From assembly GCF_026967925.1 (NCBI RefSeq), contig NZ_JAPVBI010000002.1:310001-374000 (forward strand): DNA of 64,000 nucleotides. The letters run 5' to 3'. A program made the position numbers and the translations under genes. Shown here piece after piece: positions 6,372 to 25,460 of this stretch. Origin of the DNA: Modestobacter sp. VKM Ac-2985 (GTDB lineage: Bacteria; Actinomycetota; Actinomycetes; Mycobacteriales; Geodermatophilaceae). Each line of letters begins with the position of its first letter. Position 1 is the stretch's first letter. The notes below the pieces were generated by a model, which saw only the letters and a program-made list of their open reading frames with translations, ran no database searches and was not told where the DNA came from.

Positions 6372-6400
6372 CCCGGCCACCCTGCCGTCCCGACGGCGAG

Positions 6401-6414
6401 GTTGCACGTGGAAC
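6401..6414. promoter_or_regulatory. parS-like ParB-binding site A
   Basis: GTTGCACGTGGAAC. It fits the core of the bacterial centromere site parS (classical TGTTTCACGTGAAACA; core GTTNCACGTGNAAC). The same 14-mer occurs at 16273 (reverse) and 25447. Sites A and B share 19 bp (GTTGCACGTGGAACACGAC). It lies in the 64-bp gap between the hydrolase and the AAA ATPase gene. Confidence 0.8.
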
Positions 6415-6435
6415 ACGACCCGAACGGGTGCCGGA

Positions 6436-7626
6436 CTACTCCGGGGCGTGGCGGAGCAGGTAGCGGCCGAAGTGCGGGACGGTGAAGGCGATCTGGCCGC
6501 GTTCGGCGGAGTAGACCAGGCCCTTCTTGATCAGCGAGTCCCGGGCGGGGGAGAGGGAAGCCGGCTTGCGGCCCAGCGTCACCGCGACGTCCGAGGTGCC
6601 CACCGCGGCGCCGCTCGGCCCGCCCAGATCGGCCATGGCGTGCATGTACTCCCGCTCGGCCGGGGTGGCCCGGTCGTAGCGGGACCCGAAGAAGCCGACC
6701 GCGAGCTCGGCCTCGGCGGCCGGTGCGGCCATCGCGACGTCGTCGGCGGTGATGGGGGAGGCCGCGGCGACGTCCCAGGTGACCTTGCCGTAGGCCTGCA
6801 CGAAGTAGGGGTAGCCGTCGGCGGCGGCATAGAGGGCGTCCAGCGCCTCGGTGTCGAACGCGACGTCCTCCCGCTCGGCGGGGGCCAGCAGTGCCCGGTC
6901 GGCGGCGTCCCGGTCCAGCCGGTCGATCCGCAGGTAGCGGAAGAGCCGCTCCGAGTAGCTCTTGGAGGCGCTCAGCACCGCGGGCAGGTGGGGGAGCCCG
7001 GCACCGACGACGATCAACGGCGAGCCCTGCTGGGAGAGCTCGTGGCACGCCGCGCAGATCGCCGAGACGTCGTCGGTCTGCACGTCCTGCATCTCGTCGA
7101 TGAACAGCGCCACGCCCTTGCCGACGTCGGCGGCGAGGCCGGCCACGTCGCTGAGCAGCTCGACCAGGTCGATCTCCATGTCCCCGGAGTCGGCGCGCCC
7201 GGTGCTGGCCGGGACGTCGATGCCCGGCTGCCAGCGGTCGCGCACCTTCGCATCGGCGGGTGCCTGGCGCTGGGCGAACGCCTTGAGGGTGCCCAGGACG
7301 GCGTCGGTGGACTCCTGGTCGGGGTGGCGCAGCTCGCGCAGTGCCATGTGCAGGGCGGCCGACAGCGGCCGGCGCAGCGACTGGTCCGGGCGGGCCTCGA
7401 TCTTGCCGGTGCCCCAGCCGCGGGTGATGGCCGCGGAGCGCAGCTGGTTGAGCAGCACGGTCTTGCCGACGCCACGCAGCCCGGTGAGCACCAGCGAGCG
7501 CTCCGGCCGGCCGCGGGCGATCCGTTCGAGGACGACGTCGAAGGCCGACAGCTCCGTGTCCCGGCCGGCCAGCTCGGGCGGGCGCTGCCCGGCGCCGGGG
7601 GCGTACGGGTTCCGCACGGGGTCCAT
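6436..7626 (-). CDS. AAA-type ATPase with C-terminal winged-helix region (Orc1/Cdc6-like)
   Basis: A 396-residue ATP-binding protein. It has Walker A GLRGVGKT (about residues 45-52), Walker B VALFIDEMQD (about 173-182) and a sensor-like VVGAGLP. A C-terminal helical region with SLIKKGLVYSAERGQIAFTVPHFGRYLL resembles the winged-helix end of Orc1/Cdc6-like and NTPase_1-like AAA proteins. Such proteins are often chromosomally encoded in actinobacteria and poorly understood. ATG 7626 is chosen (AGGG 8 nt before); GTG 7635 would add three residues. A perfect LexA box lies 163 nt upstream, so DNA-damage induction is likely. Client and DNA binding are unknown. Confidence 0.8.
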   Translation of the reverse strand: MDPVRNPYAPGAGQRPPELAGRDTELSAFDVVLERIARGRPERSLVLTGLRGVGKTVLLNQLRSAAITRGWGTGKIEARPDQSLRRPLSAALHMALRELRHPDQESTDAVLGTLKAFAQRQAPADAKVRDRWQPGIDVPASTGRADSGDMEIDLVELLSDVAGLAADVGKGVALFIDEMQDVQTDDVSAICAACHELSQQGSPLIVVGAGLPHLPAVLSASKSYSERLFRYLRIDRLDRDAADRALLAPAEREDVAFDTEALDALYAAADGYPYFVQAYGKVTWDVAAASPITADDVAMAAPAAEAELAVGFFGSRYDRATPAEREYMHAMADLGGPSGAAVGTSDVAVTLGRKPASLSPARDSLIKKGLVYSAERGQIAFTVPHFGRYLLRHAPE

Positions 7627-7635
7627 GTCGAGCAC

Positions 7636-7788
7636 CCTATGTCGTTGTCTTGCCGCAGCGGTAGAAACCGTTAGACGACGGCATCGACCGCCGTCTCGAT
7701 ACCCGTCTGGCGCTGTCTAGTGTCAGCGGTAGACGAGCACATACAGCGTCAGAGGGCCTCCGCGATGGACGTCACGCTACCACGTCGT
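7636..7788 (-). promoter_or_regulatory. leader of the AAA ATPase gene with direct repeats
   Basis: On the - strand this region holds TCTACCGCTG twice (about 73 bp apart; + strand positions near 7654-7663 and 7724-7733). A TAGCGT hexamer at about 7774-7779 lies just after the LexA box and could be the -10. A 23-codon ATG reading frame exists in the leader but lacks a well-spaced ribosome site. Function of the repeats is unknown. Confidence 0.35.
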
Positions 7789-7804
7789 TCGAACGTGCGT
7801 TCGA
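7789..7804. promoter_or_regulatory. LexA (SOS) box
   Basis: TCGAACGTGCGTTCGA: a perfect match to the mycobacterial/Gram-positive LexA box TCGAAC-N4-GTTCGA (CGAACRNRYGTTCG), with flanking bases extending the inverted repeat to TTCGAACG/CGTTCGAA. It lies after the stop of the TVP38-type gene and upstream of the AAA ATPase gene, both on the - strand, so the ATPase gene is the likely target. Confidence 0.8.
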
Positions 7805-7819
7805 ATCGGAGGACCGGCG

Positions 7820-8551
7820 TCAGGCCTCGGGCTGTCGGGCACCTGCCGCCCGTCGGCGGCCTCGGGACACGCCGAGCACGACGAGGGCCAGGGTGAGCGG
7901 CACCACGCTGACCAGCAGCGGGACGCCGCCGTCCCCGTCGGCCGCGCCCACGGTCGCCCCGATGCTCACGTGCAGCACGGTGCCCGGCACCAGCCCCAGG
8001 GCGCTGCCGGCCAGATGGTCCCGCCACCGCATGCCGGACAGTCCGGCGGCGTAGCTGACCACGGTGAACGGCGCGATCGGCGTCAGCCGGCCGACCAGCA
8101 CCGCGAGGAACCCGCGCTCGGACAGCCGGGCGTCGACCCGGGCCAGCCGCGGCCCGGCCAACCGGGTGACCGCCTCCCGGCCGAGCCGGCGGGCCACCAG
8201 GAACCCGGCGGCGGCGCCGAGGACGCCGCTGGTCAGCGCCAGCGCGAGCCCGCCCCAGAACCCGGCGAGGACGCCGGCCAGCAGGGAGAGCGCCGTGCGG
8301 GGCACCGGCGCGAGCGTGGCCAGCGCCAGGCCGACGACGAGGACGGCCCAGCCGAGGGGGCCGACGTCGCCGAGCCAGTCGCGGAGCGTGGCGACCTCGG
8401 GGAGGTCGGCCGTGAGGGCGACGGTGCAGCCGGCGGCGATCAGGGCGACCAGCAGCAGGGCGCGGCGCACGGTCCGGGCGGGCAGGCGGCGCGGCTCGGC
8501 GTCCGGCCGGCGGGGCGCCGGGGCTGGGTCCTGCGTCGGCGCACTGGTCAC
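7820..8551 (-). CDS. TVP38/TMEM64 (VTT/DedA-like) membrane protein
   Basis: A 243-residue integral membrane protein. After a short Pro/Arg-rich N-terminus come hydrophobic helices at about 27-47, 60-85 and 88-125. The SNARE-associated/VTT domain follows, with the typical GRLTPIAPFTVVSYAAGLSGMRW segment (re-entrant loop with conserved Arg and Pro) and LGLVPGTVLHVSIGATVG. Two more helices close the protein, which ends Arg-rich. VTT proteins are linked to lipid scrambling or transport. The start is GTG 8551 after TGGGAG; longer reading to 8818 runs through non-coding DNA. The leader can form several hairpins (see 8572-8693). Confidence 0.88.
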   Translation of the reverse strand: MTSAPTQDPAPAPRRPDAEPRRLPARTVRRALLLVALIAAGCTVALTADLPEVATLRDWLGDVGPLGWAVLVVGLALATLAPVPRTALSLLAGVLAGFWGGLALALTSGVLGAAAGFLVARRLGREAVTRLAGPRLARVDARLSERGFLAVLVGRLTPIAPFTVVSYAAGLSGMRWRDHLAGSALGLVPGTVLHVSIGATVGAADGDGGVPLLVSVVPLTLALVVLGVSRGRRRAAGARQPEA

Positions 8552-8571
8552 CGCTGCAGTCTCCCAGCGCA

Positions 8572-8693
8572 GCGCCCCGCCGGGAGCCGACTCCCGACGG
8601 GGCGCGCGATGACCGGTCCGGGCGGGCGCCTCTCGGCGAGTGGTCGCACGAGGCGACGAGGGGGGGTGGAGCCCGGGGCTCCGACCGGACCGG
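8572..8693 (-). promoter_or_regulatory. candidate structured leader RNA before the TVP38-type gene
   Basis: Read on the - strand, 8693-8686 can pair with 8620-8613 (8 bp). This stem encloses three hairpins: 8682-8677/8673-8668, 8657-8653/8647-8643 and 8638-8635/8630-8627, the last with a GAGA tetraloop of GNRA type. A 15-bp hairpin with one mismatch (8605-8572, 4-nt loop) follows, then the ribosome site. This looks like an aptamer plus expression platform, but high GC favours chance pairing and I cannot match it to a known riboswitch. The rest of the 300-bp gap (8694-8850) shows nothing I can name. Confidence 0.3.
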
Positions 8694-8850
8694 CACCCAC
8701 CACAACGCCCGGGGTGCTCGATTGTTCCCCACCGGATCGCGTGACATGTACCGCTGTCAGGATCGTCCACGGGTGTCTGGCCGCGGCACGAGAGTCGGTC
8801 ACACGGCCCGAGTCCCACGGAAGGTGATCGCTGGGCGCTACCGTGCCGCC

Positions 8851-9240
8851 GTGGCCACGATCGGGAAGTTCGCCGTCCGCGTCGTCGTGCTGGCGGCGAT
8901 CATCTACGCCGTGACGCGGCTCGTCGACGGGATCGAGGTGATCGGCAACCCGACCGGGTTCTTCGGCGAGACCGGCACCTACCTGTGGGTCGCGCTGCTG
9001 TTCGCGCTGGTCAACTCCATCATCGGGCCGATCGTCCGGCTGCTGGCGCTGCCGTTCGTGATCCTCACCCTCGGCCTGTTCCTGCTGGTCATCAACGCGG
9101 CGATGCTCGGCCTCACCGCGGTGCTGTCCGACCGGTTCACCGTGGACGGCTTCCTCGCCGCCCTGTTCGGCGGGTTCCTCATCGCCCTCTTCAGCTGGAT
9201 CGCCGAGCTGGTGCTGCCCTTGAAGGTGCGCGGCCACTAG
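8851..9240 (+). CDS. phage-holin-family (PF04020-type) small membrane protein
   Basis: A 129-residue protein with four predicted membrane helices (about 6-25, 43-60, 65-90 and 103-123). The pattern ALLFALVNSIIGPIVRLLALPF followed by LTLGLFLLVINAAMLGLTA is characteristic of the 'phage holin family IV/YvlD' group of chromosomal membrane proteins. Despite the family name these are not part of a prophage here. GTG 8851 is chosen because the family motif starts right after it; other in-frame starts lie at 8824 and further up. It ends 11 bp before the glutamate dehydrogenase gene, so the two may be cotranscribed. Function unknown. Confidence 0.82.
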   Translation: MATIGKFAVRVVVLAAIIYAVTRLVDGIEVIGNPTGFFGETGTYLWVALLFALVNSIIGPIVRLLALPFVILTLGLFLLVINAAMLGLTAVLSDRFTVDGFLAALFGGFLIALFSWIAELVLPLKVRGH

Positions 9241-9251
9241 CGTCGGCGAGC

Positions 9252-12200
9252 ATGGCTCGTCTCGGTTCGGAGTCCGATCGGTCCGCACGCACCCCCGTCG
9301 ACGGCCTGGTGGACAGCCAGGTCGACATGGCCTCGCTGGAGGCGGCGCAGGAGGAGAAGCGCCGGCTGCTGGACCAGGCAGCCACCGCCGCCTGCGAGCT
9401 GTTGACCACCCAGGGCGCCCTGCCGGCCGGCGTCGGACCGGCCGACACCCCCGTCCTGCTGCACCGTTTCTACGCCGGTGAACCGGCCGCCGAGGTGGTC
9501 GGCCACGACCCCGTCGAGTTGGCCGGCCTCGCGCTCGGGCACCTCCGGCTGGCGGCCTCCCGCCGGCCGGGCACCCCGGTCGTCGACGTCCACCGGACCG
9601 ACGGCGGGCAGGCCGTGCTCCGGGTGGTCGTCGACGACATGCCGTTCCTCGTCGACTCCGTCAGCGCCGAGGTGACCCGGCAGGGCATCGCCCCCGACCA
9701 CGTCGTGCACCCGGTCGTGGTCGTCCGCCGCGACGCCGACGGGGGGCTGGTCGACTTCTGCGACAGCGCCGATGCCGTCACCTGCGGGGCCGACGCGATC
9801 GCCGAGTCCTGGATGTCCGTCGTGCTGTCCGGGCAGGTCGACGAGGAGGCTGCCGACGACCTGCTGGCCGGGATCGGTGCCGTGCTGGACGACGTACGCC
9901 GGGCACACGCCGACGCCGCGGCTCTGGCCGGGCGGGCCGGGGAGATCGCCGACGCGCTGGACCGGTTGCCGTCCCCCGCGGACGACGGGCACCCCGCCGA
10001 CGACCCGGCCGAGGCCGCGGCGCTGCTCCGCTGGCTGGCCGGCGGCAACTTCCTCTTCCTCGGCGCCCGCACCGTCGAGCTGGTCGGTGACCCCGCCGAG
10101 CCGGCCGTCGACGTGGTCGCCAGCTCCGAGCTCGGCGTGCTGCGCAGCTCCGCCGAGCGCGCCACCTCGGTGGCGCCGGCCGGGCTGGCCGCGCCGGGAG
10201 CGGGGGCCGCGCGCTGCGTCCGGATCACCAAGGGGGACGCCCGCTCCACGGTCCAGCGCCCGGCCTGGCTGGACCTGGTCGTCGTCGACCTGCCCAGCGA
10301 CTCACCGGGCAGCCGTGGCCGCCAGCACCTGCTCGTGGGCCTCTTCCCGAACGAGGCGTACACCAGCAGCGTCCGGGACGTGCCCGTGGTCCGGCGGACC
10401 GCCGACGCCGTCCTGGCGCGCTCGGGGGTGCCGGCCGACAGCCACTCGGGCAAGCAGCTGCTCGACGTCCTGGAGACCTACCCGCGCGACGAGCTGCTGC
10501 AGGTCGACGTCGACGAGCTGCTGCCGGTGGCGCTGGCCGTGCTGCACCTGCGCGAACGCCGGCAGACCCGGCTGTTCCTGCGCCGCGACCCGTTCGGCCG
10601 GTTCTTCTCCGCCCTCGTCTACCTGCCGCGGGACCGGTACACGACGCAGGTGCGGCTGACCATGCAGCGGCTGCTGCTGGAGCACCTGGGCGGCACCCAC
10701 GTGGAGTTCACCGTCCGGTCCAGCGAGTCGGTGCTCACCCGCCTGCACTTCATCGTCCGGGTGCCGGTGAGCCGGCGGGGTGGTCCGTCGCTGCCCGACG
10801 TCGACGTCCCGGCGCTGGAGCAGGCCCTGGCGGCGGCCGCCCGCAGCTGGACCGACGACCTGGCCGCCGCCCTCGTCGCCCGGTACGGCGACGACGCCCC
10901 CCGGCTGCTGGCCCGGGTCGCCGACGCCTTCCCCGCGGCCTACCAGGAGGAGTTCCCGGCCCAGGTGGCCGTGGAGGACCTGGCCCGGCTGGACCGGCTG
11001 GCCCCCGGCGGGCTGGACCTGCGGCTGCGGGCCCCGGCCGGGCCGGAGGGGGAACGCCGGCTGACCGTGTACCGGGTGGGGGAGCGGCTGCTGCTGTCCG
11101 ACGTGCTGCCGGTGCTGCAGCACATGGGCGTCGACGTGCTCGACGAGCGGCCGTACGAGGTCGACCGGATCGGCGCCCCGATGGCCTGGGTGTACGACTT
11201 CGGCCTGGCGTCGCCGACCACCGAGGTGCCCTTCGCCGGCACGCTGCCCGAGCGGTTCACCGACGCGATCACCGCCGTCTGGGCCGGCCGGGCCGAGGAC
11301 GACGCACTGAACTCCCTCGTCCTGCTGGCCGGGCTGACCTGGCGGCAGGTCGCCGTGCTGCGCGCCTACGTGCAGTGGCTGCGTCAGGTGGGGCTGCCCT
11401 TCGGCCAGTCCTACGTGCAGGAGACCCTCGCCGCGCACCCGGGGATCGTGGCCCGGCTGATCGCGCTGTTCGAGACCCGGTTCCACCCCGACCGCTCGGC
11501 CGGCCGCGAGGCGCGCACCACCGCCCTGGTCGAGTCGCTGACCGCGGCGATCGGCGAGGTGGCCTCACTGGACGCCGACCGGGTGCTGTCCTCGCTGCTG
11601 GCCGCCGTCCGGGCGACCCTGCGGACGACGGCGTACACGGCCGGCGTCTTCACCGACGGCGCCCCGCTGGCGCTCAAGCTCGACCCCTCCGCCGTCCCCG
11701 ACCTGCCCGAGCCCCGCCCGGCGCGGGAGGTGTGGGTCAGCTCGCCGCAGGTGATCGGCGTGCACCTGCGGTTCGGTGCGGTCGCCCGCGGGGGGCTGCG
11801 CTGGAGCGACCGGCGCGAGGACCTGCGCACCGAGGTGCTGGGCCTGGTCAAGGCGCAGACGGTGAAGAACACCGTGATCGTCCCGACCGGGGCCAAGGGC
11901 GGCTTCGTGGTGCTGCGCGGCCCCGGTGAGGGCGCCACCCGCGACGAGGTCCTCGCCGAGGGCAAGGCCCGCTACACCCAGTTCATCGGCGCGCTGCTGG
12001 CCCTCACCGACAACCTCGAGGCCGGCGCCGTCGTCCCACCGGAACGGGTCGTCCGGCACGACGGTGACGACACCTACCTGGTGGTCGCCGCCGACAAGGG
12101 GACGGCGACCTTCTCCGACCTGGCCAACTCGGTGGCGATCGAGCGCGGGTTCTGGCTGGGCGACGCGTTCGCCTCCGGCGGCTCGGTCGGCTACGACCAC

Positions 12201-14210: not shown

Positions 14211-14281
14211 ACCCCACCGGATCCGGGCGACACGCCGACGACGCGGAGTACACAGCGGATGGATGGGGCACAACCGGACTC

Positions 14282-14734: not shown

Positions 14735-14755
14735 GCTCCGGCTCGACCCGGCGGG

Positions 14756-16174
14756 TCAGAGCTCCGGACGGCGCCGGCCGAAGCCGGTGGCCTGCTCGAA
14801 CGCGTGGCCGACCTCCAGCACCCGCCGGTCGGCCCGCGGCGCACCGATGACCTGCAGGCCCACCGGCAGCCCGTCCGGGGTGAAGCCACCGGGCACCGAC
14901 AGGGCGGGGCACCCGGTCGCCGAGATCAGCGTGCAGGAGCGCATCCAGCCCAGGTAGTCCTCCTGCGGGACGCCGGCGACCTCGGTCGGGTACTCCTGCT
15001 CGACCGGGAACGGCAGCACCTGCGTGGTCGGGGCCAGCAGCACGTCGAAGCGCTCGAAGAACGCGACGACCCGCTCGAAGAGGGCCGTGTGCGCGACCTC
15101 CGCGCGGCCGACGTCGGCGCCGGTCAGCGCCGCACCCCGGGCGGCGTTCCAGCGGATCGTCTCCTTCACCTGGTCCGGGTGCTCACGCACCAGGGCGCCG
15201 AAGCTCGCCTCGAACAGCCAGGCCCGCAGCACCCCGAACGCCTCGTCGGCGCCGGCCAGGTCCGGGCAGTCCTCCTCGACGGTGGCGCCGAGGTCACGGA
15301 ACACCCCGAGCTGCTCCATCAGCACGGCGGTGATCGCCGGGTCGACCGGGACCTGGCCGCCCAGGTCGGGTGCCCAGGCCACCCGCAGGCCGGTCAGCTC
15401 GGTCGGCAGCGGCGCGGCGAACGGGGCGCCGGGGTCGGTCAGCGAGATCGGCACCCGCGGGTCGGGGCCGGCCAGTGCGGACAGCCCCAGCGCGACGTCG
15501 CCGACGGTGCGGCCCATCGGCCCCTGTACCGACAGCTGGGACCAGCCGATCGCCGTCGGGTGGCTGGGCACCCGGCCGGGCGTGGGGCGCAGGCCTACGA
15601 CGTTGCAGAACGCCGCCGGGTTGCGCAGCGAGCCGCCCATGTCGCTGCCCTCGGCGATCGGCACCAGCCCGGCGGCCAGCGCCGCGGCCGCGCCGCCGGA
15701 GGACCCGCCGGCGGACAGCCCGTGCCGGTAGGGGTTGTGGGTGGCGCCGAACAGGGTGTTGAAGGTGTGCGAGCCGGCCGCGAACTCGGGCACGTTCGTC
15801 TTGCCGACCCGGATCGCCCCGGCCGCCTTCAGCCGGGCGACGACGAGCTCGTCGCGGTCCGGCACCGTCTCGGCGTGCAGCGGTGAGCCCCAGGTGGTGC
15901 GCATGCCCCCGGTGGCGTGGGTGTCCTTGTGCGCGACCGGCAGGCCGTGCAGCGGACCGACCGGCTCACCGGCGGCCAGCCGGGCGTCGGCGGCGTCGGC
16001 CGCGGCCCGGGCGCCCTCGGCGTCCAGCGTGACGATCGCGTTGAGCTCCGGGTTCAGCCGCTCGATCCGGTCGAGGTGGGCGTCCATCAGCTCCCGCGCG
16101 GAGACCTCCCGGTCGCGGACCAGCGCGACCAGCTCGGTCGCCGGACGGGTGCACAGCTCGTCGAGGTCGCTCAC
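14756..16174 (-). CDS. amidase (amidase-signature family)
   Basis: A 472-residue amidase-signature enzyme. The Ser-cisSer-Lys triad is visible: Lys83 in VAHKDTHATGG, the Gly/Ser-rich loop AGGSSGGAAAALAAG and the nucleophile region EGSDMGGSLRNPAAFCN. The C-terminal LPVGLQVIGAP is a family hallmark. It is close to GatA in length, but no gatB/gatC is nearby and the N-terminus differs, so it is more likely a catabolic amidase of unknown substrate. GTG 16174 starts MSDLDELC. It lies 42 bp after yaaA on the same strand and may be in its transcript. Confidence 0.9.
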   Translation of the reverse strand: MSDLDELCTRPATELVALVRDREVSARELMDAHLDRIERLNPELNAIVTLDAEGARAAADAADARLAAGEPVGPLHGLPVAHKDTHATGGMRTTWGSPLHAETVPDRDELVVARLKAAGAIRVGKTNVPEFAAGSHTFNTLFGATHNPYRHGLSAGGSSGGAAAALAAGLVPIAEGSDMGGSLRNPAAFCNVVGLRPTPGRVPSHPTAIGWSQLSVQGPMGRTVGDVALGLSALAGPDPRVPISLTDPGAPFAAPLPTELTGLRVAWAPDLGGQVPVDPAITAVLMEQLGVFRDLGATVEEDCPDLAGADEAFGVLRAWLFEASFGALVREHPDQVKETIRWNAARGAALTGADVGRAEVAHTALFERVVAFFERFDVLLAPTTQVLPFPVEQEYPTEVAGVPQEDYLGWMRSCTLISATGCPALSVPGGFTPDGLPVGLQVIGAPRADRRVLEVGHAFEQATGFGRRRPEL

Positions 16175-16216
16175 CCTGGCGACCGTACTGGGTGTCTCAG
16201 CGCTGAGGAACCTCGG

Positions 16217-16981
16217 TCAGCGGGTGACCGCTGCTGCTGGGACGACGAGGGTCAGCTCGGTGTGGCCGTCGTGTTCCACGTGCAACCCCGACCGGCGCAG
16301 CAGCGCCCGCAACCGGACGACGGAGTCCGGCTCGGCCGTGGTGGTCGCCAGCAGCCGCGCCAGCCGGCCCTTGTGCGCCTTGTTGAAGTGGCTGACCACC
16401 GCCCGGGTGCCGTCGGGGCGCTCGCTGAGCACCTGCACGGTGACCGCGTTCGGGACGGGGGCCAGCTCGGCGTACGCCCCGGAGCGCAGGTCGACCACCA
16501 GGTCGTCGACGCCGATCAGCACGTCGGTGAGCACCGGCTTCCAGAGCGACCGCAGCGTCGGCAGCCCGGGCAGGGAGCTGCCCGCGGACAGCCGGTAGGC
16601 GGGGACGGGGTCGTCGGCGCGCAGCAGCCCGAACAGCGCGGAGCCCACCGCCAGCCGCCCCGCGGCCCGGCGGCGTTGGGCCCGGGCGAGGGACCGCACG
16701 TCCAGGGCGTCGTACAGGACGCCGGTGTAGCGCTCGATCGCCGGCATCGTCGGGCTGGTGCGCAGTGCGGCGTTGCGGGCGATCTCGCCGTCCTGGGCGG
16801 GGGAGAGGCCGAGCGCGGCCCGGGCGGCCGGGACGTCGCCGGCGAGCGACACCACCGCGGTCACCAGTTGTTCGCGCAGGGGGTTCAGCTCCGGGGTGCC
16901 CAGGGCACTCAGGTCCAGCGGGGCGCCGTCCCCGCCGGGGTGCTTGGTCTCCGACGGCGGCAGCAGGACGAGCACGAGCAC
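16217..16981 (-). CDS. yaaA: YaaA-family peroxide stress protein
   Basis: A 254-residue member of the YaaA (DUF328) family, which in E. coli limits free iron during hydrogen peroxide stress. Family motifs are all present: LLPPSETK (residues 6-13), RYTGVLYDAL, the GLLRADDPVPAYRLS block, DLRSGAYAEL and the basic SHFNKAHKGR. The length is normal. The 3' part of the gene contains parS-like site B, which encodes LHVEH. The gene is divergent from the PP2C phosphatase gene. Confidence 0.9.
   Translation of the reverse strand: MLVLVLLPPSETKHPGGDGAPLDLSALGTPELNPLREQLVTAVVSLAGDVPAARAALGLSPAQDGEIARNAALRTSPTMPAIERYTGVLYDALDVRSLARAQRRRAAGRLAVGSALFGLLRADDPVPAYRLSAGSSLPGLPTLRSLWKPVLTDVLIGVDDLVVDLRSGAYAELAPVPNAVTVQVLSERPDGTRAVVSHFNKAHKGRLARLLATTTAEPDSVVRLRALLRRSGLHVEHDGHTELTLVVPAAAVTR
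16273..16286. promoter_or_regulatory. parS-like ParB-binding site B (inside yaaA)
   Basis: GTTCCACGTGCAAC on the + strand, which is the reverse complement of the 14-mer at sites A and C. It lies within the coding sequence of yaaA, as many parS sites do lie within genes. Confidence 0.78.
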
Positions 16982-17104
16982 GAACGGTAGGGGACCGCGC
17001 CCGCCGTGTTCGTGGGCGCCCCTGGGTCGCGTGATCTACCGTTCGGCGACTGCTGCGTTCGCAGTGCAGGCCGGTCGGTCGGTGAGGACAGGAGGTGACG
17101 GCAG

Positions 17105-17956: not shown

Positions 17957-17972
17957 GCGCCTCGTCCCTGCC

Positions 17973-19118
17973 TCACGTCCAGTAGAGCAACCGGGCGGCG
18001 GGCAGCCGGTCGGCGATCGCGTCGGTGAACCAGCTCCGCAGCTCGGTCATGGTGTCCCGCGGGTAGACGTGCTTCACGGCCCCGAACTTGCCGCGCTTGG
18101 TGGTCCGGACGTCCTCGTCCATCTCCAGCTTCGTGCGCGGGTACCAGTCGGTCAGCGTGGCCTTGCTGCCCGGCGTGAACCGGTGGGTGATGCACTCGAC
18201 GGTGAGATCGGTACCGGTGGGGAGCGCCGCGGCGACGTCGTCCAGCAGCTGGCCGTACTCCTCTCGCCAGCCCTCGCCGGGCATGATCGGGGCGATGGTC
18301 AGGCCGACGGGGTAGCCGGCGGCGGCCACCGCGCCCAGGGCGGCGATGCGGCCGGCGACCGGCGAGGTCGCCCCTTCGAAGCGGCGGGCCACCGAGGCGG
18401 CGTTCAGCGAGAAGCGCAGCCGGGTCCGGCCGCCGTGCGGCAGGTCGAGCAGGCCGGCGACGTCGTCGAACTTGGTGGTGGCCCGCAGCTGCACCGGCCC
18501 GGCCCAGTCGTGGGTGCCGAAGTGCCTGATCGCCGTGGCCAGCCCGCCGGTCAGGTGCTCCAGCGCCAGGGGGTCGGTGTAGCACGAGGCCTCAAATGTC
18601 GTCCCCTCGCCGGCGCGGGCAGCGGACCCGGAGGTGACGGTGCCGTGCCCGACACAGCCGTCCAGGCCCGCCAGGGCCTCGTCGAGGTCGGCGTACACCC
18701 GGGTGATCGGCGGCCCGGACAGCGAGCCGGCCAGGTAGCAGTACTGGCAGTGCGCCGGGCAGCCCTGCGCGAGGTCGAACCGCCAGTCGGCCGAGGGGGC
18801 GATCGGCTGCAGCCGGCGCAGCGAGGGCGGCGGCACCACCAGTGCCAACGTCTGCTTGGCCGCCATGAACGCCGCCCGGTCGCCGTCGCCGCGCAGGGCG
18901 GGCAGCCGGTCGCCGCGCAGCAGTTCGATGTCGCTGACCCCCGCGGCCTCCAGCTGGGCCAGCACCCGCTGCCCGTACGGGCGTTCGGCCGCGGAACGGG
19001 TGACGAGGACCCGGGACGGCGTCCACAGCCGGGTCGGCGTGGGAGCCGTGACAGGTCGAACGGCGAGCGGGGCGGCGGGGAGCGGGGAGCTGGTGGGAGC
19101 GGTGCGCGCGGTGGGCAT
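17973..19118 (-). CDS. SplB-like radical SAM protein
   Basis: A 381-residue radical S-adenosylmethionine protein. The 4Fe-4S motif is C120-x3-C124-x2-C127 (CPAHCQYCYLAG), followed by YTDPLALEHLTGGL and LRFSLNAASVARRFE. This arrangement matches the spore photoproduct lyase/Rv2578c-like group. True SplB repairs the spore photoproduct in endospore DNA; in actinobacteria without endospores the substrate is unknown. I place the start at ATG 19118; the frame stays open for another 1 kb upstream, but that stretch is the HNH gene read in the wrong frame. The Pro/Ala/Thr-rich first 30 residues look disordered. Confidence 0.85.
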   Translation of the reverse strand: MPTARTAPTSSPLPAAPLAVRPVTAPTPTRLWTPSRVLVTRSAAERPYGQRVLAQLEAAGVSDIELLRGDRLPALRGDGDRAAFMAAKQTLALVVPPPSLRRLQPIAPSADWRFDLAQGCPAHCQYCYLAGSLSGPPITRVYADLDEALAGLDGCVGHGTVTSGSAARAGEGTTFEASCYTDPLALEHLTGGLATAIRHFGTHDWAGPVQLRATTKFDDVAGLLDLPHGGRTRLRFSLNAASVARRFEGATSPVAGRIAALGAVAAAGYPVGLTIAPIMPGEGWREEYGQLLDDVAAALPTGTDLTVECITHRFTPGSKATLTDWYPRTKLEMDEDVRTTKRGKFGAVKHVYPRDTMTELRSWFTDAIADRLPAARLLYWT

Positions 19119-19156
19119 CGCCTGGTGCAACGGCCCCCGGACGGCCGTCCTTCCGC

Positions 19157-20617
19157 TCAGGCGGCGCGTCGCCGGACGAGGTCGCGATGTGCCATCAGCG
19201 CCCAGACGACGTGCCGCAGGTCCATCCGCTCGCCGTCGGAGGGGAGGGCCGAGGGCAGCAGGTGCGCGGACGGGAGCAGTGACGTCAGCCCGTCCGGGGC
19301 GGTCCCGCGGAACCGCTCCCCGGTGTCGGACCACGGGCGCCCGCCGTCCGGGGTGACGGCGACCAGCCGGCCGCCGCGCCGGCTGAGCGCCAGGTCGTGG
19401 TCGTGGACGAGCCCGTGGTCGACGTCGCAGAGCAGGACGAGGTTGGAGACGTCGGTGCGGCCGCCGTGCAGCCAGTGTCGCAGGTGGTGGGCGTGCAGAC
19501 GTTCCGGCCGCGTCTCCTCGCAGCCCGGTCGCGCACAGCCGCCGTCGCGCAGCAGCAGTGCGCGGCGCTGGGCGCGGGTGGCGTATCGCCGCGACCGGCC
19601 CTGGGCCAGCACCTCGGGGCCGTCGGTGACGATCGCGGTGACGGCCGCGTCGCAGGCCAGCCGACGCGCCTGCGCAGGCGTGAGGGCCGGACCGCCTTCC
19701 AGCGCGGCCCGCCCGGCGGCCTCGTCGTCGGCGAGCACCGCGGCGTCCACGACGACGACCACCTCGCGACGGGGCGGGTCCCCGGCGCGGCGGTCGGCGT
19801 CGGCCGCCGCCGCGGCCAGCTGGGTCATCGCTCGGCAGCGGCGCTCGGTGGTCACGGCCAGCGGCTCCGCCTCGTCCTCGGCCGGGGGATCGCCGGTGGC
19901 ACGTCCTCCCGCGGCGGGGACGCCGGTGGAGGCCGCCTGACCGTCCCCAGCCGGTTCGGGACCGCCGGCCAGGGCGGCCCGGGCGCGGCGACGGGCGGCC
20001 CGCTCCCGGCGGGCGTCCCGTTCGGCGAGCGACTCGATCGCGGCGAGGAACTCGGCGCCCTGCTCGGCCTCCATCCGCACCTGCACCGAGACCATCCCGT
20101 CGTCCTCGGTCCACCAGGAGAACCGTCGCCGGTCGGCGACCCGGCCCGCGTCGACGTCGTCGGCCCGGCGCCAGGCCCGCACGGTGCGCTCCACCTGGGA
20201 GGCGGTGGCGTGCCGGGCGAACTCGACGAGCTCGGCCTCGGTGCCCGGTTCGGCGACCCGGGTCAGTGCGCGCACCTTCGAGTAGGAGAGCTCACCGGCG
20301 GAGAAGGCGGCGCTGGTGAGTGGCAGCGCACGCAGTGCCCGCGCCACGCGGACGTGTTGCCGGGCCGTCCCCGGCGTCAGCGCGCACTTCCAGGCCAGCC
20401 AGTGCGCGCACGAGGTGATGCCGACGCCTCCCCAGCCCTCCCGCTCGTCGAACTCGGCGACCAGCCGCAACCAGGAGGCCGACGCCGCCGCCAGCTGCAC
20501 CGCGCCGGCGCAGATCCGATCACCGAGCGCTTCGATCGGCTCCATCGGCTCGATCGAGTCGGTGGTGACGAGGGGGGCGACGGGCAGCGGCAGCGGAGTG
20601 ATCAGCTTCTCGATCAT
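19157..20617 (-). CDS. DUF222 (13E12-repeat) HNH endonuclease-family protein
   Basis: A 486-residue protein of the actinobacterial 13E12/DUF222 group. The N-terminal two thirds (about 25-330) is the helical DUF222 region, with WLAWKCALTPGTARQHVRVARAL. An Ala/Arg-rich low-complexity linker lies at about 200-245, and the C-terminal HNH domain contains GGCARPGCEE, LHAHHLRHWLHGGRTDVSNL and CDVDHGLVHD (His and Asn ligands present). 13E12 family genes of M. tuberculosis include LexA-regulated members, and here a LexA-like box overlaps the start codon (20610-20625). Biochemical role unknown. Intact in length. Confidence 0.9.
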   Translation of the reverse strand: MIEKLITPLPLPVAPLVTTDSIEPMEPIEALGDRICAGAVQLAAASASWLRLVAEFDEREGWGGVGITSCAHWLAWKCALTPGTARQHVRVARALRALPLTSAAFSAGELSYSKVRALTRVAEPGTEAELVEFARHATASQVERTVRAWRRADDVDAGRVADRRRFSWWTEDDGMVSVQVRMEAEQGAEFLAAIESLAERDARRERAARRRARAALAGGPEPAGDGQAASTGVPAAGGRATGDPPAEDEAEPLAVTTERRCRAMTQLAAAAADADRRAGDPPRREVVVVVDAAVLADDEAAGRAALEGGPALTPAQARRLACDAAVTAIVTDGPEVLAQGRSRRYATRAQRRALLLRDGGCARPGCEETRPERLHAHHLRHWLHGGRTDVSNLVLLCDVDHGLVHDHDLALSRRGGRLVAVTPDGGRPWSDTGERFRGTAPDGLTSLLPSAHLLPSALPSDGERMDLRHVVWALMAHRDLVRRRAA

Positions 20618-20625
20618 GTGTTCGA
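20610..20625. promoter_or_regulatory. LexA-like SOS box over the HNH gene start
   Basis: TCGATCATGTGTTCGA: one mismatch to TCGAAC-N4-GTTCGA, with the four central bases fitting RNRY. It covers the ATG (complement of 20615-20617) of the 13E12/HNH gene. LexA control of 13E12-family genes is established in M. tuberculosis. Confidence 0.6.
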
Positions 20626-20666
20626 ACGTAGGGGAGACCGCTGACAGAAGTGCAGCTCGGTCGCGC

Positions 20667-20690
20667 GTGACGGTTCCGCGGAACCGTCAC
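20667..20690. promoter_or_regulatory. 24-bp perfect palindrome in a divergent intergenic region
   Basis: Half-site GTGACGGTTCCG is followed directly by its exact reverse complement. It lies between the divergent HNH gene (start 20617) and VOC gene (start 20768), where a dimeric repressor site would be expected. It has no loop, so a terminator role is less likely. Confidence 0.5.
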
Positions 20691-20767
20691 GGCGGACATG
20701 GTCCGAGGATGCAGTGGTGCAGCGCGGTCAGCGAGGATGACGCCACCGACCGAACCGAGGGGGTGTC

Positions 20768-21151
20768 ATGGCCGCATCAGCTGGCCCGGACTTCAGGGGT
20801 GGCCGCAACATCGCCATGAAGGTGCCGCCCCACCAGTGGGAAGAGACCGTCCGGTTCTACCGGGAGACCCTCGGGCTGCGGGAGCTGGCCAACCCGTTCG
20901 ACACCGGTCCGGAGTCGGTGGGCTTCGAGTTCGGCGCCAACCGGCTGTGGATCGACCGGGTCCCCGGCGTGAGCCAGGCGGAACTCTGGCTGCAGGTGAC
21001 GACCGAGGACACCGCAGCCGCGGCCGACCGCCTGGCGGCCCACGGAGTGGCCCGCTGCGACGAGATCGAGCCACTGGGCACCACGGCAGCCTTCTGGATC
21101 ACCAGTCCGGCCAGCATCGTGCACCTGGTGTCGGCGCCCGATCGGGACTGA
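20768..21151 (+). CDS. VOC-family (glyoxalase/bleomycin resistance-like) protein
   Basis: A 127-residue single-module vicinal-oxygen-chelate protein. It has the beta-alpha-beta-beta-beta pattern: WEETVRFYRETLGLRELA, FEFGANRLWIDRV, a DTAAAADRLAAHGVA helix and FWITSPASIVHLVSAP. Metal ligands are not all evident, so it may bind rather than transform its ligand. ATG 20768 is preceded by GAGGGGG at good distance. It converges with exonuclease III, 6 bp away. Substrate unknown. Confidence 0.85.
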   Translation: MAASAGPDFRGGRNIAMKVPPHQWEETVRFYRETLGLRELANPFDTGPESVGFEFGANRLWIDRVPGVSQAELWLQVTTEDTAAAADRLAAHGVARCDEIEPLGTTAAFWITSPASIVHLVSAPDRD

Positions 21152-21157
21152 GCTGGC

Positions 21158-21961
21158 TCAGTCGGCCAGGTCGACGACGACCGGGGCGTGGTCGCTGGCG
21201 CCCTTGCCCTTGCGCTCCTCGCGGTCGATCCTGCCTCCGGTGACCCGCTGCGCCAGCGCCGGCGAGCCGAGCACGAAGTCGATCCGCATGCCCTCGCGGC
21301 GGGGGAAGCGGAGCTGGGTGTAGTCCCAGTAGGTGTAGACCCCCGGCCCGGGCGTGTACGGCCGGACGACATCGGTGAAGCCGGCCTCGACCACGCCCCG
21401 GAACGCGGCCCGCTCGGGCTCGGACACGTGCGTGGAGGAGCTGAACACCGAGATGTCCCAGACGTCGTCGTCCTGCGGGGCGATGTTCCAGTCGCCGACC
21501 AGCGCCACCTGCGCCTCGGCGTCCTCGGTGAGCCATCCGCCGGCGTGCACCCGCAGCGCCTCCAGCCACTCGAGCTTGTACTGCAGGTGCGGGTCGGTCA
21601 GCGTGCGGCCGTTGGGCACGTACAGGCTCCACACCCGGACCCCGCCGCAGACCGCACCGAGTGCACGGGCCTCCTGGGCGGGCTCCACGCCCTCCTTCGA
21701 CGACCACGAGGGCATGCTGGGGAAGCCGACCTGGACGTCGCTGATCCCGACTCGGGAGAGCAGCGCGACGCCGTTCCACTGCGAGTGGCCGACGTGGGCG
21801 ACGTCGTAGCCCAGCGCCCGGAACCGGTCTTCCGGGAACTGCTCGTCCTTGCACTTGGTCTCCTGCAGCGCCAGGACGTCGCAGTCACTGCGCTGCAGCC
21901 AGGCCTCCACCCGGTCGACTCGGCTGCGGATGGAGTTGACGTTCCAGGTGGCCAGGCGCAC
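21158..21961 (-). CDS. xth: exodeoxyribonuclease III (AP endonuclease)
   Basis: A 267-residue member of the ExoIII/AP endonuclease family, acting in base excision repair. Conserved blocks are LATWNVNSIRSR (residues 3-14), LALQETKCKDEQFP (metal-binding Glu), YVPNGR, VGDWNIAP (catalytic Asp and Asn), RIDFVLGSP and the C-terminal GASDHAPVVV (catalytic His). I place the start at GTG 21961 directly before the first motif; the frame remains open far upstream but overlaps the desaturase gene. The spacing to the desaturase gene is 32 bp, so they may share a transcript. Confidence 0.94.
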   Translation of the reverse strand: MRLATWNVNSIRSRVDRVEAWLQRSDCDVLALQETKCKDEQFPEDRFRALGYDVAHVGHSQWNGVALLSRVGISDVQVGFPSMPSWSSKEGVEPAQEARALGAVCGGVRVWSLYVPNGRTLTDPHLQYKLEWLEALRVHAGGWLTEDAEAQVALVGDWNIAPQDDDVWDISVFSSSTHVSEPERAAFRGVVEAGFTDVVRPYTPGPGVYTYWDYTQLRFPRREGMRIDFVLGSPALAQRVTGGRIDREERKGKGASDHAPVVVDLAD

Positions 21962-21993
21962 GGGTGCCGAGCCTAGGTGAGGCTCGCTCCCCG

Positions 21994-22956
21994 TCAGGCC
22001 TGGGGCAGGGGGGTGAGCGGGGTGTCCTGGCGGGCCTGCACGCGGGCGCGCATCCGGTCCCGGCTCTCCACGAACTTGGTGGCCTGGGCGTCGAGGCCGA
22101 CCAGGAACCGGGCGAGCTCCTCGCGGGCCTGCTCGCCCTCGGGGCCGAGGTTGGTGCGCTCGAACACCTTCCACGCGCGCAGCACGGGCTGGATGACCTC
22201 GTCGTGGTGCAGACGCAGGTCGTAGATGCCGGCCTTGGCGATGAGCACGGAGTTCTTCCGGAAACCGGCCATGGTGGCGCCGGGCATCTCGAAGCGCATC
22301 ACCTCGTCGGCGACCGCCCGCATGGTCTTGTCCGGCTCGATCTCGAAGGCCGCGGAGACGATGTTCCGGTAGAAGACCATGTGCAGGTTCTCGTCCTTGG
22401 CGATCCGGGCGAGGAGCTGGTCGGCGATCGGGTCGCCGGTGGCCTTGCCGGTGTTGCGGTGGCTCACCCGCGTGGCGAGCTCCTGGAACGAGACGTAGGC
22501 GACCGCCTCGAGGGGGGTCTTGTCGCCGGAGTCGTAGCCCGAGGTCATGTAGTCCATCCGGGCCCGCTCGAGCTCGACGGGGTCGACCCCGCGGGTGACG
22601 ACGAGGTAGTCGCGCAGCGCGACGCCGTGCCGGTTCTCCTCCGCCGTCCAGCGGCCGACCCACGTGCCCCAGGCGCCGTCGCGGCCGAAGCGGGTGGCGA
22701 TCTCCCGGTGGTAGCTGGGGAGGTTGTCCTCGGTGAGCAGGTTGGTGAACATCGCCGCCTTGGCGGTCTCGTCCAGCCGGGACTGCTCCGGCGACCAGTC
22801 CTCGCCGCCGAGGAAGGCGAAGTCCCGTCCCTGCGACCACGGGACGTAGTCGTGGGGGTGCCATTCCTGCGCCAGCCCGATGTGGCGGTTCAGGTTCTCC
22901 TCCACCACCGGCTCGAGCTCGCTGAGCAGTGCTGCCTCGCGCGACGTGTGGGACAC
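21994..22956 (-). CDS. acyl-ACP desaturase (ferritin-like di-iron)
   Basis: A 320-residue stearoyl-ACP desaturase-type enzyme (mycobacterial DesA-like) that introduces a double bond into ACP-bound acyl chains. The two di-iron motifs are visible: EENRHG (E-x2-H) and DENLHMVF (E-x2-H), each on a long helix, with earlier Glu ligands in the LEPVVEENLNRH region. GTG 22956 has a strong ribosome site (GAGGAGG) 6 nt upstream. Soluble, no membrane helix. Electron donor genes are not nearby. The 245-bp gap to the divergent LCP gene holds no motif I can name. Confidence 0.92.
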   Translation of the reverse strand: MSHTSREAALLSELEPVVEENLNRHIGLAQEWHPHDYVPWSQGRDFAFLGGEDWSPEQSRLDETAKAAMFTNLLTEDNLPSYHREIATRFGRDGAWGTWVGRWTAEENRHGVALRDYLVVTRGVDPVELERARMDYMTSGYDSGDKTPLEAVAYVSFQELATRVSHRNTGKATGDPIADQLLARIAKDENLHMVFYRNIVSAAFEIEPDKTMRAVADEVMRFEMPGATMAGFRKNSVLIAKAGIYDLRLHHDEVIQPVLRAWKVFERTNLGPEGEQAREELARFLVGLDAQATKFVESRDRMRARVQARQDTPLTPLPQA

Positions 22957-23201
22957 GATCGACCTCCTCGGTCCGGTACTTGCGATGTGGTGATCCACGC
23001 GGACCGTGCCGACGTGCGGTGGCCGACTGCGGTCGCGTCTGACCCTTCCGTACCCGGGGGTGACCGCACCAGACATCGAGGTGTGACCGGGCACACGGCC
23101 TGCGCTCCCGGGGGTGAGGCCGTCCGCCGAGCCCGTGATCCGAGGCCGAAACGGTGCGATCATGGCCGGATGACCGGATCCGCGATGCACGGGGCTGCCG
23201 C

Positions 23202-24791
23202 GTGAGCGACGAACCAGCGACCCGGCAGGGCGGTCGGCACGGCAGGCGGAGAGGTCCCCACACCGTCCGTGGCTTCGGCCCGGCCCTGCTGTTCACCGTG
23301 GTCGGTGCCCTGGTCCCCGGCTCCGCCTTCCTGGCCACCGGGCGGCGCCGGCTCGGTGCGGTGGTCGTCGTCGTGTTCATGGTCCTGCTCGGTGGGGTGG
23401 CCTACCTGGCCACCACGGGTCTGCGCGACGTGATCGCGGTGGCCGTCGACTCGACGGCCCTGCGGTGGGTGATCGGCGGCATCGTCGCTCTCGCGGTGGC
23501 CTGGCTGCTCGTCGTGCTGATCGGTTACGCCCTGCTGTTGCCGCGCCGTACGCGAGCATGGCAACACGTGCTCGGCGCGGTCGTCGTCCTGACCCTGTGC
23601 GCGGGGGTGGTCATGCCCGCCGTGTGGGCCGTGCGGATCGCCGATGCCCAGGCCCAGCTGCTCGACAACGTGTTCGCCGACCGGGAGAGCGCCACGGTCA
23701 CCGACTCCTCCGACGACCCCGACCCCTTCGGTGACCGGGAGGAGGTCAACTTCCTGCTGCTGGGCGGGGACGGCGGCGAGGGCCGCGAGGGCGTGCGCAC
23801 CGACACGGTGATCGTCGCCAACGTGCAGACCGACACCGGCGCCACCACGCTGTTCAGCCTGCCCCGCAACCTGCAGGAGCTCCCCTTCCCCGAGGACAGT
23901 CCGCTGGGCGAGGTCTACCCCGACGGCTTCGACGCCGGGTCCGAGGCCGAGTCCATCCTGAACGCCGTCTACCGCAACGGCCCGGCCTGGTACCCCGACG
24001 TCCTCGGCCCGACCGATGACCCCGGCGCGGACTTCCTGAAGCTCGGCGTCGGCGAGGCCCTCGGCCTGGAGATCGACTACTTCGTGCTGGTCAACCTGGA
24101 CGGCTTCAGCCGGCTGGTCGACGCGCTCGGGGGCATCGACGTGAACGTCAACTACTACGTGCCGATCGGTGGCGAGCCGACGCTCGGGATCCTGCCGGAC
24201 GACTACATCGCGCCCGGCCCGGACCAGCACATGGACGGCACCCGGGCCCTGGACTACGCGCGCGGCCGGTTCGGCCTCTCCGACTACCAGCGCATGGACC
24301 GCCAGCGGTGCGTGATCGGCGCGATCGTCGACGCCGCCAACCCGGTCACCCTGCTCACCCGGTTCCAGCAGCTGGCCGCGACCACCCAGGACATCGTGTC
24401 CACCGACGTGCCCCAGTCCCGCCTGGACGAGCTCGTCGACCTGGCGTTCGAGGTCAAGGACGCCGAGATCCGGAGCGTCGTCTTCGACGACACGGTGATC
24501 GACCCGGCCTACCCGGACTACGACCGGATCCGCGCGTTGGTGCAGCAGGCGCTGGACGGCCCGTCGGACACCCCGTCCGCGGACACCTCCTCGCCCGCGG
24601 ACGAGCCCGCGGACGAGCCCGCCGAGAGCGAGCCGGCGGACGACGCGTCCGCGACCTCGTCGCCTGGCGCGACCAGCGCCGCGCCACCAGAGCCGGACCC
24701 GGCCGCCGAGGTCGGTGACGCCTGCGCCTACGACCCGGCACAGGCGCAGGCCGCCCGCGCGGAGGGGGAGCCCCCCACCCGCAACGGCTGA
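23202..24791 (+). CDS. LytR-CpsA-Psr (LCP) family protein
   Basis: A 529-residue LCP protein; this family attaches glycopolymers to peptidoglycan using polyprenyl-linked donors. The N-terminus is cytoplasmic and basic, followed by three or four hydrophobic helices (about 28-140), more than in single-pass LCP proteins. The LCP domain has NFLLLGGDGGEGREGVRTDTVIVANV, TTLFSLPRNLQ and the Arg-containing DYARGRFGLSDYQRMDRQR. The C-terminal 80 residues are Asp/Glu/Ser/Pro-rich and probably disordered. I place the start at GTG 23202. Its stop is 5 bp from the convergent lutC stop, with no terminator between. Confidence 0.9.
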   Translation: MSDEPATRQGGRHGRRRGPHTVRGFGPALLFTVVGALVPGSAFLATGRRRLGAVVVVVFMVLLGGVAYLATTGLRDVIAVAVDSTALRWVIGGIVALAVAWLLVVLIGYALLLPRRTRAWQHVLGAVVVLTLCAGVVMPAVWAVRIADAQAQLLDNVFADRESATVTDSSDDPDPFGDREEVNFLLLGGDGGEGREGVRTDTVIVANVQTDTGATTLFSLPRNLQELPFPEDSPLGEVYPDGFDAGSEAESILNAVYRNGPAWYPDVLGPTDDPGADFLKLGVGEALGLEIDYFVLVNLDGFSRLVDALGGIDVNVNYYVPIGGEPTLGILPDDYIAPGPDQHMDGTRALDYARGRFGLSDYQRMDRQRCVIGAIVDAANPVTLLTRFQQLAATTQDIVSTDVPQSRLDELVDLAFEVKDAEIRSVVFDDTVIDPAYPDYDRIRALVQQALDGPSDTPSADTSSPADEPADEPAESEPADDASATSSPGATSAAPPEPDPAAEVGDACAYDPAQAQAARAEGEPPTRNG

Positions 24792-24796
24792 CGCCG

Positions 24797-25429
24797 TCAG
24801 CCCGCCAGCACGACCAGGAGCGTGCGCGGGCCGTGCACGCCCTCGACCCGCTGCAGCTCGATGTCGCTGGTCGCCGAGGGGCCGCTGACCATCGTCAGCG
24901 GGCGCAGCGGGTCCAGCCGGGCCAGCCCCTCGGGCACGCTGCCCACCACCTGGTCGGCGGTCACCACGCAGACCAGGCAGTCCGGCAGCAGGGACAGCGC
25001 CCGCCGGCCGCAGGCCGGGGAGCCGTCCAGCACCAGGGTGCCGGTCTCGGCGACCGCCACCGCCACGGCGGTGACCGAGGCGGCCCGGTCGGCGAGCTGC
25101 ACCGCCGGCCGGTCGTCGTCGACGTCGCAGCCGGCCGGCCGCCAGTCCTCGGCCAGTCCCGGGGCGACGACGACGTCGCCGGCCGACCACCCGCTGCCCA
25201 GCCCCTGGTCCAGGGCGGCCCGGACGGTGGCGCCCACCTCGGCCGGGGCGCAGCGCAGCACCGTGGCCCGGTAGTCCTCCACCCGGTCGACCAGCAGCTC
25301 CAGCAGCGCCGGGGCGCCGGCCGGGCGGCCATCGGTGAGCCGGTAGTCGCGCACCACCTCCTCCGGCGGCGTCCGGTCCGCCCCCAGGGCCTGGCGCACC
25401 CGGGACAGCACCTCCTCGCGTGCGCTCAC
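24797..25429 (-). CDS. lutC: lactate utilisation protein LutC
   Basis: A 210-residue LUD-domain protein, third component of the LutABC complex that oxidises L-lactate to pyruvate. Typical segments are WSAGDVVVAPGLA, AVAETGTLVLDGSPACGRRALSLLPDCLVCVV and the C-terminal SATSDIELQRVEGVHGPRTLLV. GTG 25429 is chosen because AGGAGG lies 7 nt before it; an in-frame ATG-type start at 25453 would fall inside parS-like site C. It follows lutB on the same strand after 55 bp. Confidence 0.92.
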   Translation of the reverse strand: MSAREEVLSRVRQALGADRTPPEEVVRDYRLTDGRPAGAPALLELLVDRVEDYRATVLRCAPAEVGATVRAALDQGLGSGWSAGDVVVAPGLAEDWRPAGCDVDDDRPAVQLADRAASVTAVAVAVAETGTLVLDGSPACGRRALSLLPDCLVCVVTADQVVGSVPEGLARLDPLRPLTMVSGPSATSDIELQRVEGVHGPRTLLVVLAG

Positions 25430-25446
25430 CGTCGTCCTCCTGTCGT

Positions 25447-25460
25447 GTTGCACGTGGAAC
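25447..25460. promoter_or_regulatory. parS-like ParB-binding site C
   Basis: GTTGCACGTGGAAC, identical to site A and to the reverse complement of site B. It sits in the gap between lutB and lutC. Confidence 0.8.

Follow-up and report, generated by a model that had tools for sequence, protein, structure and literature searches.

In chromosomal ParABS systems, a ParB-CTP dimer docks on both halves of a parS site, closes as a clamp and slides onto the flanking DNA; ParA moves the region covered in this way, which also recruits SMC. Streptomyces chromosomes carry a mean of 22.8 parS sites (range 11-65) near oriC (PMC8743542). In Pseudomonas aeruginosa, the affinity of ParB drops with departure from the palindrome; the tightest sites lie next to oriC, less perfect sites away from it are bound with lower affinity, and the weaker parS5-10 depart from the core at fixed positions (PMC4368675). 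The ten parS sites of Corynebacterium glutamicum lie within 35 kb, nine of them intergenic and the one farthest from oriC genic, and degenerate sites farther out, with at least three mismatches, do not recruit ParB (PMC7083940). Scattered parS sites, which are restricted to few lineages, have been termed counterproductive with respect to collisions between SMC complexes; in B. subtilis, these collisions depend on the number, strength and spread of the loading sites (PMC8357415). Some bacteria spread many parS sites across hundreds of kilobases.

The window analysed here is a 64-kb stretch (C2:310001-374000) of a 4,716,754-base assembly in nine contigs, labelled G000, and holds three parS-like sites, s1 to s3 (Table 1). 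The array to which they belong resembles those of chromosomal ParABS (Spo0J/ParB) systems in its 14-bp core, its clustering at oriC and the closeness of parAB, and differs from the usual pattern in that 21 sites are distributed over ~0.5 Mb in a non-Streptomyces actinomycete, with an inner base pair that differs between inner and outer sites. Its many oriC-near sites recall the arrays of Streptomyces. However, in three genomes of family f28, which we take to be Streptomyces-like from their genome size and site number, 63 of 71 sites read GTTTCACGTGAAAC, the other eight have one half with C, and none has the one-sided form GTTGCACGTGGAAC (hereafter G/G) that is common in the outer part of the array described here. 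As with parS1-10 of P. aeruginosa, strong palindromes lie near oriC and less perfect sites elsewhere; unlike in that species, the 12 fixed positions are intact and one inner base differs. Like parS1-10 of C. glutamicum, this is an actinomycete array that is mostly intergenic, but it spans ~0.5 Mb rather than at most 35 kb.

Sites around the origin and parAB

Sites s1, s2 and s3 are exact matches to GTTNCACGTGNAAC, with all 12 fixed positions in each, and are identical and placed as the preliminary description had reported; the spacing of 9-10 kb that it gave is 9.87 and 9.17 kb by coordinates. Some of its other figures need adjustment. The longest stretch shared by two sites is 20 bp, not 19 bp (s1 and s2, with s2 reversed), and s3 has only the 14-bp core in common with them; the "about twenty" other CACGTG hexamers in the window are 17, for a total of 20; and the chance expectation of 0.004 sites becomes 0.0008 under an iid model of the window at 73.8% GC, a fall at high GC having been correctly foreseen. 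In 100 shuffles of the window, GTTNCACGTGNAAC occurred with a mean of 0.00 and a maximum of 0, and no extra site was found within the 64-kb window when two mismatches were allowed (1.05 expected by chance). On the G/G strand, the bases flanking the three cores are G..A, G..A and T..G; none of the three has both the T and the A that lie outermost in the 16-bp form TGTTNCACGTGNAACA, a pair that is complete in two of the 19 C2 sites (214348 and 435044). This pair is optional in P. aeruginosa, whose parS1 lacks it yet is bound (PMC4368675). What is conserved in this array seems to be the 14-bp core. Site s1 is intergenic, between genes for an alpha/beta hydrolase and an AAA ATPase; s3 lies between two LUD-domain genes, 18 bp upstream of the predicted start of the first; and s2 lies within the 3' end of yaaA, whose product scores 379 bits against NF002544 (cut-off 339).

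Table 1. Positions of sites, genes and other features (window, coordinates within the 64-kb window; C and L, contig and piece coordinates; signed kb values, distance from the parAB sites unless stated otherwise)
Feature	Position	Strand	Details
parS s1	window 6401..6414	+	reads GTTGCACGTGGAAC; ~+106 kb from dnaA, +102 kb from parAB sites
parS s2	window 16273..16286	-	+ strand reads GTTCCACGTGCAAC, reverse complement of GTTGCACGTGGAAC; ~+116 kb from dnaA, +112 kb from parAB sites
parS s3	window 25447..25460	+	reads GTTGCACGTGGAAC; ~+125 kb from dnaA, +121 kb from parAB sites
Alpha/beta hydrolase gene	window 5436-6380	-	beside s1; Pfam, home-made gene caller
AAA ATPase gene	window 6436-7635	-	beside s1; Pfam, home-made gene caller
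yaaA (peroxide stress protein YaaA)	window 16217..16981	-	host gene of s2; PF03883, E 8.8e-37
LUD-domain gene, first	window 24797-25429	-	beside s3; Pfam, home-made gene caller
LUD-domain gene, second	window 25485-26966	-	beside s3; Pfam, home-made gene caller
dnaA	C2:208346-210064	-	
Cumulative GC-skew minimum	C2:207999		over C2:1-454000
parB	C2:215802-216335		
parS array, C2	C2:86958-445211		19 sites
parS array, C1	C1:7228 and C1:76831		2 sites
Inner parS in longer perfect palindrome	C2:165411 (L106:5411-5424)		arms +6 bases
Inner parS in longer perfect palindrome	C2:280649 (L112:649-662)		arms +6 bases
Inner parS in longer perfect palindrome	C2:288909 (L112:8909-8922)		arms +11 bases
Palindromes at >=90 kb	G007 -94; G015 -202; G006 -102, +105; G077 +93		kb
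Palindromes at >=90 kb, Klenkia	G351 +95, +122, +199, +252, +346		kb
G/G sites at <90 kb	G000 +46; G007 +48; G015 +44, +53; G035 -89		kb
GTTGCACGTGCAAC site in G004	C69:49907-49920		same genus; genome without any G/G site
Amidase gene	window 14756-16174		
tRNA-Glu(ctc) call (ARAGORN)	window 15979-16072		antisense inside the amidase gene
Spore photoproduct lyase family gene	window 17973-18965		PF20903
Fatty acid desaturase gene	window 21994-22956		
ASdes sRNA match (Rfam)	window 22571-22638		82.7 bits; opposite strand of the desaturase gene

A scan of the whole genome (4.72 Mb) found 21 exact GTTNCACGTGNAAC sites, clustered at dnaA, parAB and the GC-skew minimum. The reversed pattern, used as a control, had no match in this genome or in a set of 29 genomes that includes it; elsewhere it had one to three matches in 19 of 246 genomes of the class and one match in two of 15 named genomes. 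Relative to the parAB sites, the two C1 sites were assigned to ~-227 and -297 kb by synteny with the relative G007, one contig of which carries the 5' ends of C1 and C2 in head-to-head order, ~5.4 kb apart; collinearity of C1 is assumed. On this placement, none of the 21 sites is more than ~297 kb away from the parAB sites, which has a probability of ~1e-19 under uniform placement, so the even spread around the chromosome that the preliminary description had set against its own reading is not what we found. A simple home-made gene caller assigns 90% of the C2 stretch to genes, yet puts 12 of its 19 sites between them (P 3e-8).

As had been suggested, the replication origin is close to the window: dnaA, parB and the cumulative GC-skew minimum are ~100 kb from the window's start, and the window spans ~+100 to +164 kb from dnaA, on the right arm. 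A strict DnaA-box pattern had no match in C2:205001-214000. At ~214-217 kb, C2 encodes a ParA-like AAA_31 protein, whose gene comes before parB, and a ParB_N/HTH_ParB/ParB_C protein that scores 209 bits against TIGR00180 (cut-off 58). The closest named protein among the matches listed, from which the organism's own records were possibly omitted, is the ParB of a Modestobacter strain (95% identical), which points to an actinomycete of the Geodermatophilaceae, probably a Modestobacter. Our ParB sequence contains GERR, which has been named as a CTP-binding motif (PMC12511625). Two parS sites lie directly before parA.

The core, the cluster at oriC and the nearby parAB identify the sites as parS, and we consider it highly probable (roughly 0.93, judged from sequence) that s1, s2 and s3 are working parS sites of a chromosomal ParABS system, with ParB binding predicted. 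As parS sites, they are ordinary. Alternatively, they could be read by another regulator that recognises CACGTG, a common regulator core that occurs without the parS arms at the 17 further places in the window; this is very improbable given that 12 of 12 fixed parS positions are present in all 21 sites, that the sites form one cluster round dnaA and parAB, and that two of them directly precede parA. Chance matching, for which the shortness of the motif is the sole argument, has a negligible probability and is refuted by the low expectation in the window, the absence of matches in the 100 shuffles and of reversed-pattern matches in the genome, and the conservation of the places in relatives, including that in yaaA described below. 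We also rejected a reading as Noc-binding sites (NBS). These have A and C, not G and A, at half-site positions 1 and 6 (PMC7383237), and all three window sites have G and A there; the ParB protein scores 230.8 against the Noc model TIGR04285, for which the cut-off is 315.

Site forms, distance and breadth

The 21 sites comprise 11 palindromes (GTTCCACGTGGAAC), eight G/G sites, one GTTGCACGTGAAAC and one GTTTCACGTGGAAC, the last of which lies before parA. All 11 palindromes are within 83 kb of the parAB sites, a zone that holds only one of the seven G/G sites on C2 (at +46 kb), and when intergenic sites alone are counted, all three G/G sites lie beyond all eight palindromes (P 0.006). Ten Geodermatophilaceae genomes, tabulated together, have 152 sites: 96 palindromes, 45 G/G and 11 of other forms. 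Within 90 kb of the parAB sites are 86 of the 96 palindromes and five of the 45 G/G sites. G/G sites are farther out in each of the ten genomes (one-sided P 0.0008 to 0.036); the pooled P is 3e-20, which overstates independence given shared ancestry. Palindromes fill the inner ~+-90 kb, and one-sided variants, with a GTTCCAC and a GTTGCAC half, prevail beyond. Exceptions of both kinds are listed in Table 1. The far palindromes at -94 kb in G007, +105 kb in G006 and +93 kb in G077 align with inner palindromes of our genome, and the form may therefore be inherited with the site. The ten-genome table is confined to sites with a distance on the anchor contig, which leaves aside our two C1 sites, two G015 sites on C12 and one G077 site on C19 (G/G); it excludes G013 (21 sites, fragmented), G002, G004, G009 and the remaining family genomes, and one palindrome served as anchor for G035, which has no close site pair.

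At least one G/G site occurs in 91 of 96 Geodermatophilaceae genomes, ours included, and none in the other five. The preliminary description had suggested that the inner G and G are a lineage-specific form of the site. Indeed, this form is common in the outer sites of the family, but it is not the form of the whole lineage, and in our genome the palindrome is commonest. Among 246 genomes of the class, most have 0-10 parS sites and those of family f28 have 7-47; outside f28, more than ten sites occur only in our genome (21), G205 (17) and G214 (13). Sixteen sampled relatives of the same genus have 11-23 sites each. In 12 genomes of other families (the 15 named genomes minus G357, G364 and G351, the last being in Geodermatophilaceae), sites without a T half lie at a median of 44 kb from parB (n=6), as against 2.2 kb for the others (n=36; P 0.02 by permutation within genomes). 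As a universal trait of actinomycetes, a T > C > G gradient of the inner base held only weakly, and we do not claim it.

The parS consensus writes the inner base as N, and ParB may therefore ignore it. The outer sites would then be working parS whose inner base has no function, being tolerated by ParB and inherited with each site, with occasional flips; we take this as a real possibility, at a little short of even odds. At noncoding sites, C may be converted to G by the G bias of the leading strand, and the G-rich strand is the leading strand in 36 of the 45 tabled G/G sites. The strong half likewise points away from the origin in 36 of these 45, an orientation that gene direction explains for the coding sites and that leading-strand G bias might explain for the remainder. 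Consistent with weaker selection farther out, sites with one mismatch are even more distant: all eight lie within 420 kb (median 228 kb; P 1e-6), with the outermost placed by way of the C1-C2 join, and their number does not exceed that of the reversed control (8 vs 8). At coding sites, the protein may be better served by Leu (TTG) than by Phe (TTC), such that Leu in place of Phe could favour the G/G form. Of the seven G/G sites on C2, four are coding (259835, 326273, 435044 and 445211), all in the same frame and all reading Leu-His-Val-Glu, and two of the three coding palindromes on C2 read Phe-His-Val-Glu. Codons cannot, however, explain the three intergenic G/G sites on C2, and free flips between G and C predict that the double-G palindrome GTTGCACGTGCAAC should be common among outer sites, whereas it is found at none of the 152 sites in the ten-genome table. 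It occurs once each in G004 and G023.

Conservation and possible function of the outer sites

The conservation of s2 was searched by its host gene, yaaA, and not by the site, which makes the test even-handed. A yaaA match was found in 53 of 56 family genomes, and 51 were counted, G081 and G090 being left out for a weak or partial match. An exact parS is present at identical yaaA codons in 48 of the 51 genes, our own included, and in eight of nine genera (g1 9/9, g14 9/9, g15 10/10, g16 9/9, g17 1/1, g20 8/8, g22 1/3, g23 1/1 and g21 0/1). Forty of these sites are G/G and eight are palindromic (6/8 in g20 and 2/9 in g16). Neither the other one-sided form nor the double-G form was found in the 48 genes, and every one of these 48 sites retains the GTGGAAC half. 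In frame, s2 reads xxG TTG CAC GTG GAA (LHVE), and TTG accounts for 2.8% of the Leu codons among the genes used for training. From this we infer that the outer site in yaaA would be kept by selection on the DNA word. The site is kept, and its inner base moves between two states. In G006, which is of the same genus and outside the yaaA draw, the site aligned with s2, at -102 kb, is palindromic. This palindrome and the two forms seen in yaaA are as expected for a functionless inner base, as is the single reading frame of the coding G/G sites; the restriction of the yaaA sites to G/G and the palindrome, with one half invariant, argues against it. We had also considered that the asymmetric form is fixed at each outer place, a reading rejected on account of the eight palindromes in yaaA; it had arisen from a biased choice, limited to places where a site is present.

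The site is missing from these yaaA codons in G103, G105 and G106 (g21 1/1, g22 2/3), by natural loss or late gain, which could serve to date it. In G035, G037 and G050 (g14), the yaaA parS is on the opposite side of parAB from that in G000, at a similar distance, which suggests inversions round the origin that preserved this distance.

G007, G015 and G013, which belong to the same genus, have all three window sites at orthologous places, with order and orientation unchanged; the MAFFT alignment of s3 shows 13 of the 14 core columns on account of a gap opened in G013, where a pattern search finds the full core. Among the sites fetched, s1 and s3 had no base-for-base match outside the genus, though G035 has a G/G site (-89 kb) close to the gene that neighbours s1. 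The outer site at C2:445211, within a creatininase-family gene, is G/G in every aligned relative (G007, G013, G006, G035, G037, G050, G060, G351 and G077), in a comparison that covered only places holding a site and in which two of the ten compared sites (G015 and G013b) represent another locus.

We propose a mechanism in which loading would occur chiefly at the inner palindromes, and each outer site, having one weaker half, would receive ParB (and SMC) less frequently. Outer loading would widen the region treated as centromere to ~0.5 Mb, and its lower rate would limit collisions between SMC complexes from different sites. Over 80% of the ParB peaks of P. aeruginosa lie close to GTTCCAC or GTTTCAC halves, the sequences on which its half-site peaks sit (PMC10419367), and GTTGCAC does not occur in the main text of that study. 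We infer that ParB would bind the outer sites, that GTTGCAC would be the weaker half, and that these sites would act as secondary loading sites; a weaker outer ring would fit the constraint from SMC collisions. The graded-strength step, in which half-weak outer sites would load less, is a tentative one to which we give distinctly less than even odds. A two-tier centromere in Geodermatophilaceae, consisting of a strong palindromic core and an outer ring of conserved, mostly half-strong sites, some of them within genes (yaaA and the creatininase-family gene) and retained there in several genera, strikes us as unlikely, if worth considering. If there were such a centromere, the strength of ParB and SMC loading would fall with distance from the origin, and the outward strong half could bias the loaded clamp, or SMC, outward.

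In a literature search by title and abstract opening, the matches listed included no Geodermatophilaceae parS and no distance-graded, one-sided parS. We regard the broad array, with its conserved and mostly one-sided outer part, as a modestly new variant. In Geodermatophilaceae, scattered sites that vary at a single inner base, mostly according to distance, form a natural series; together with the coding parS in 48 of 51 yaaA genes, this series makes it possible to test whether position tunes loading strength.

Minor features of the array and window

Three inner parS sites lie in longer perfect palindromes (Table 1), directly behind predicted genes and, in two cases, between converging genes, as if the extended site doubled as a terminator hairpin. 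A long embedding palindrome was rejected as a general trait of inner sites, since arms longer by at least 6 bases are found at three of 19 C2 sites and three of 19 sites in relatives.

Other features of the window include a tRNA call that is probably false, because Rfam at its gathering score gives no tRNA there, as well as an ASdes sRNA match and a gene of the spore photoproduct lyase family.
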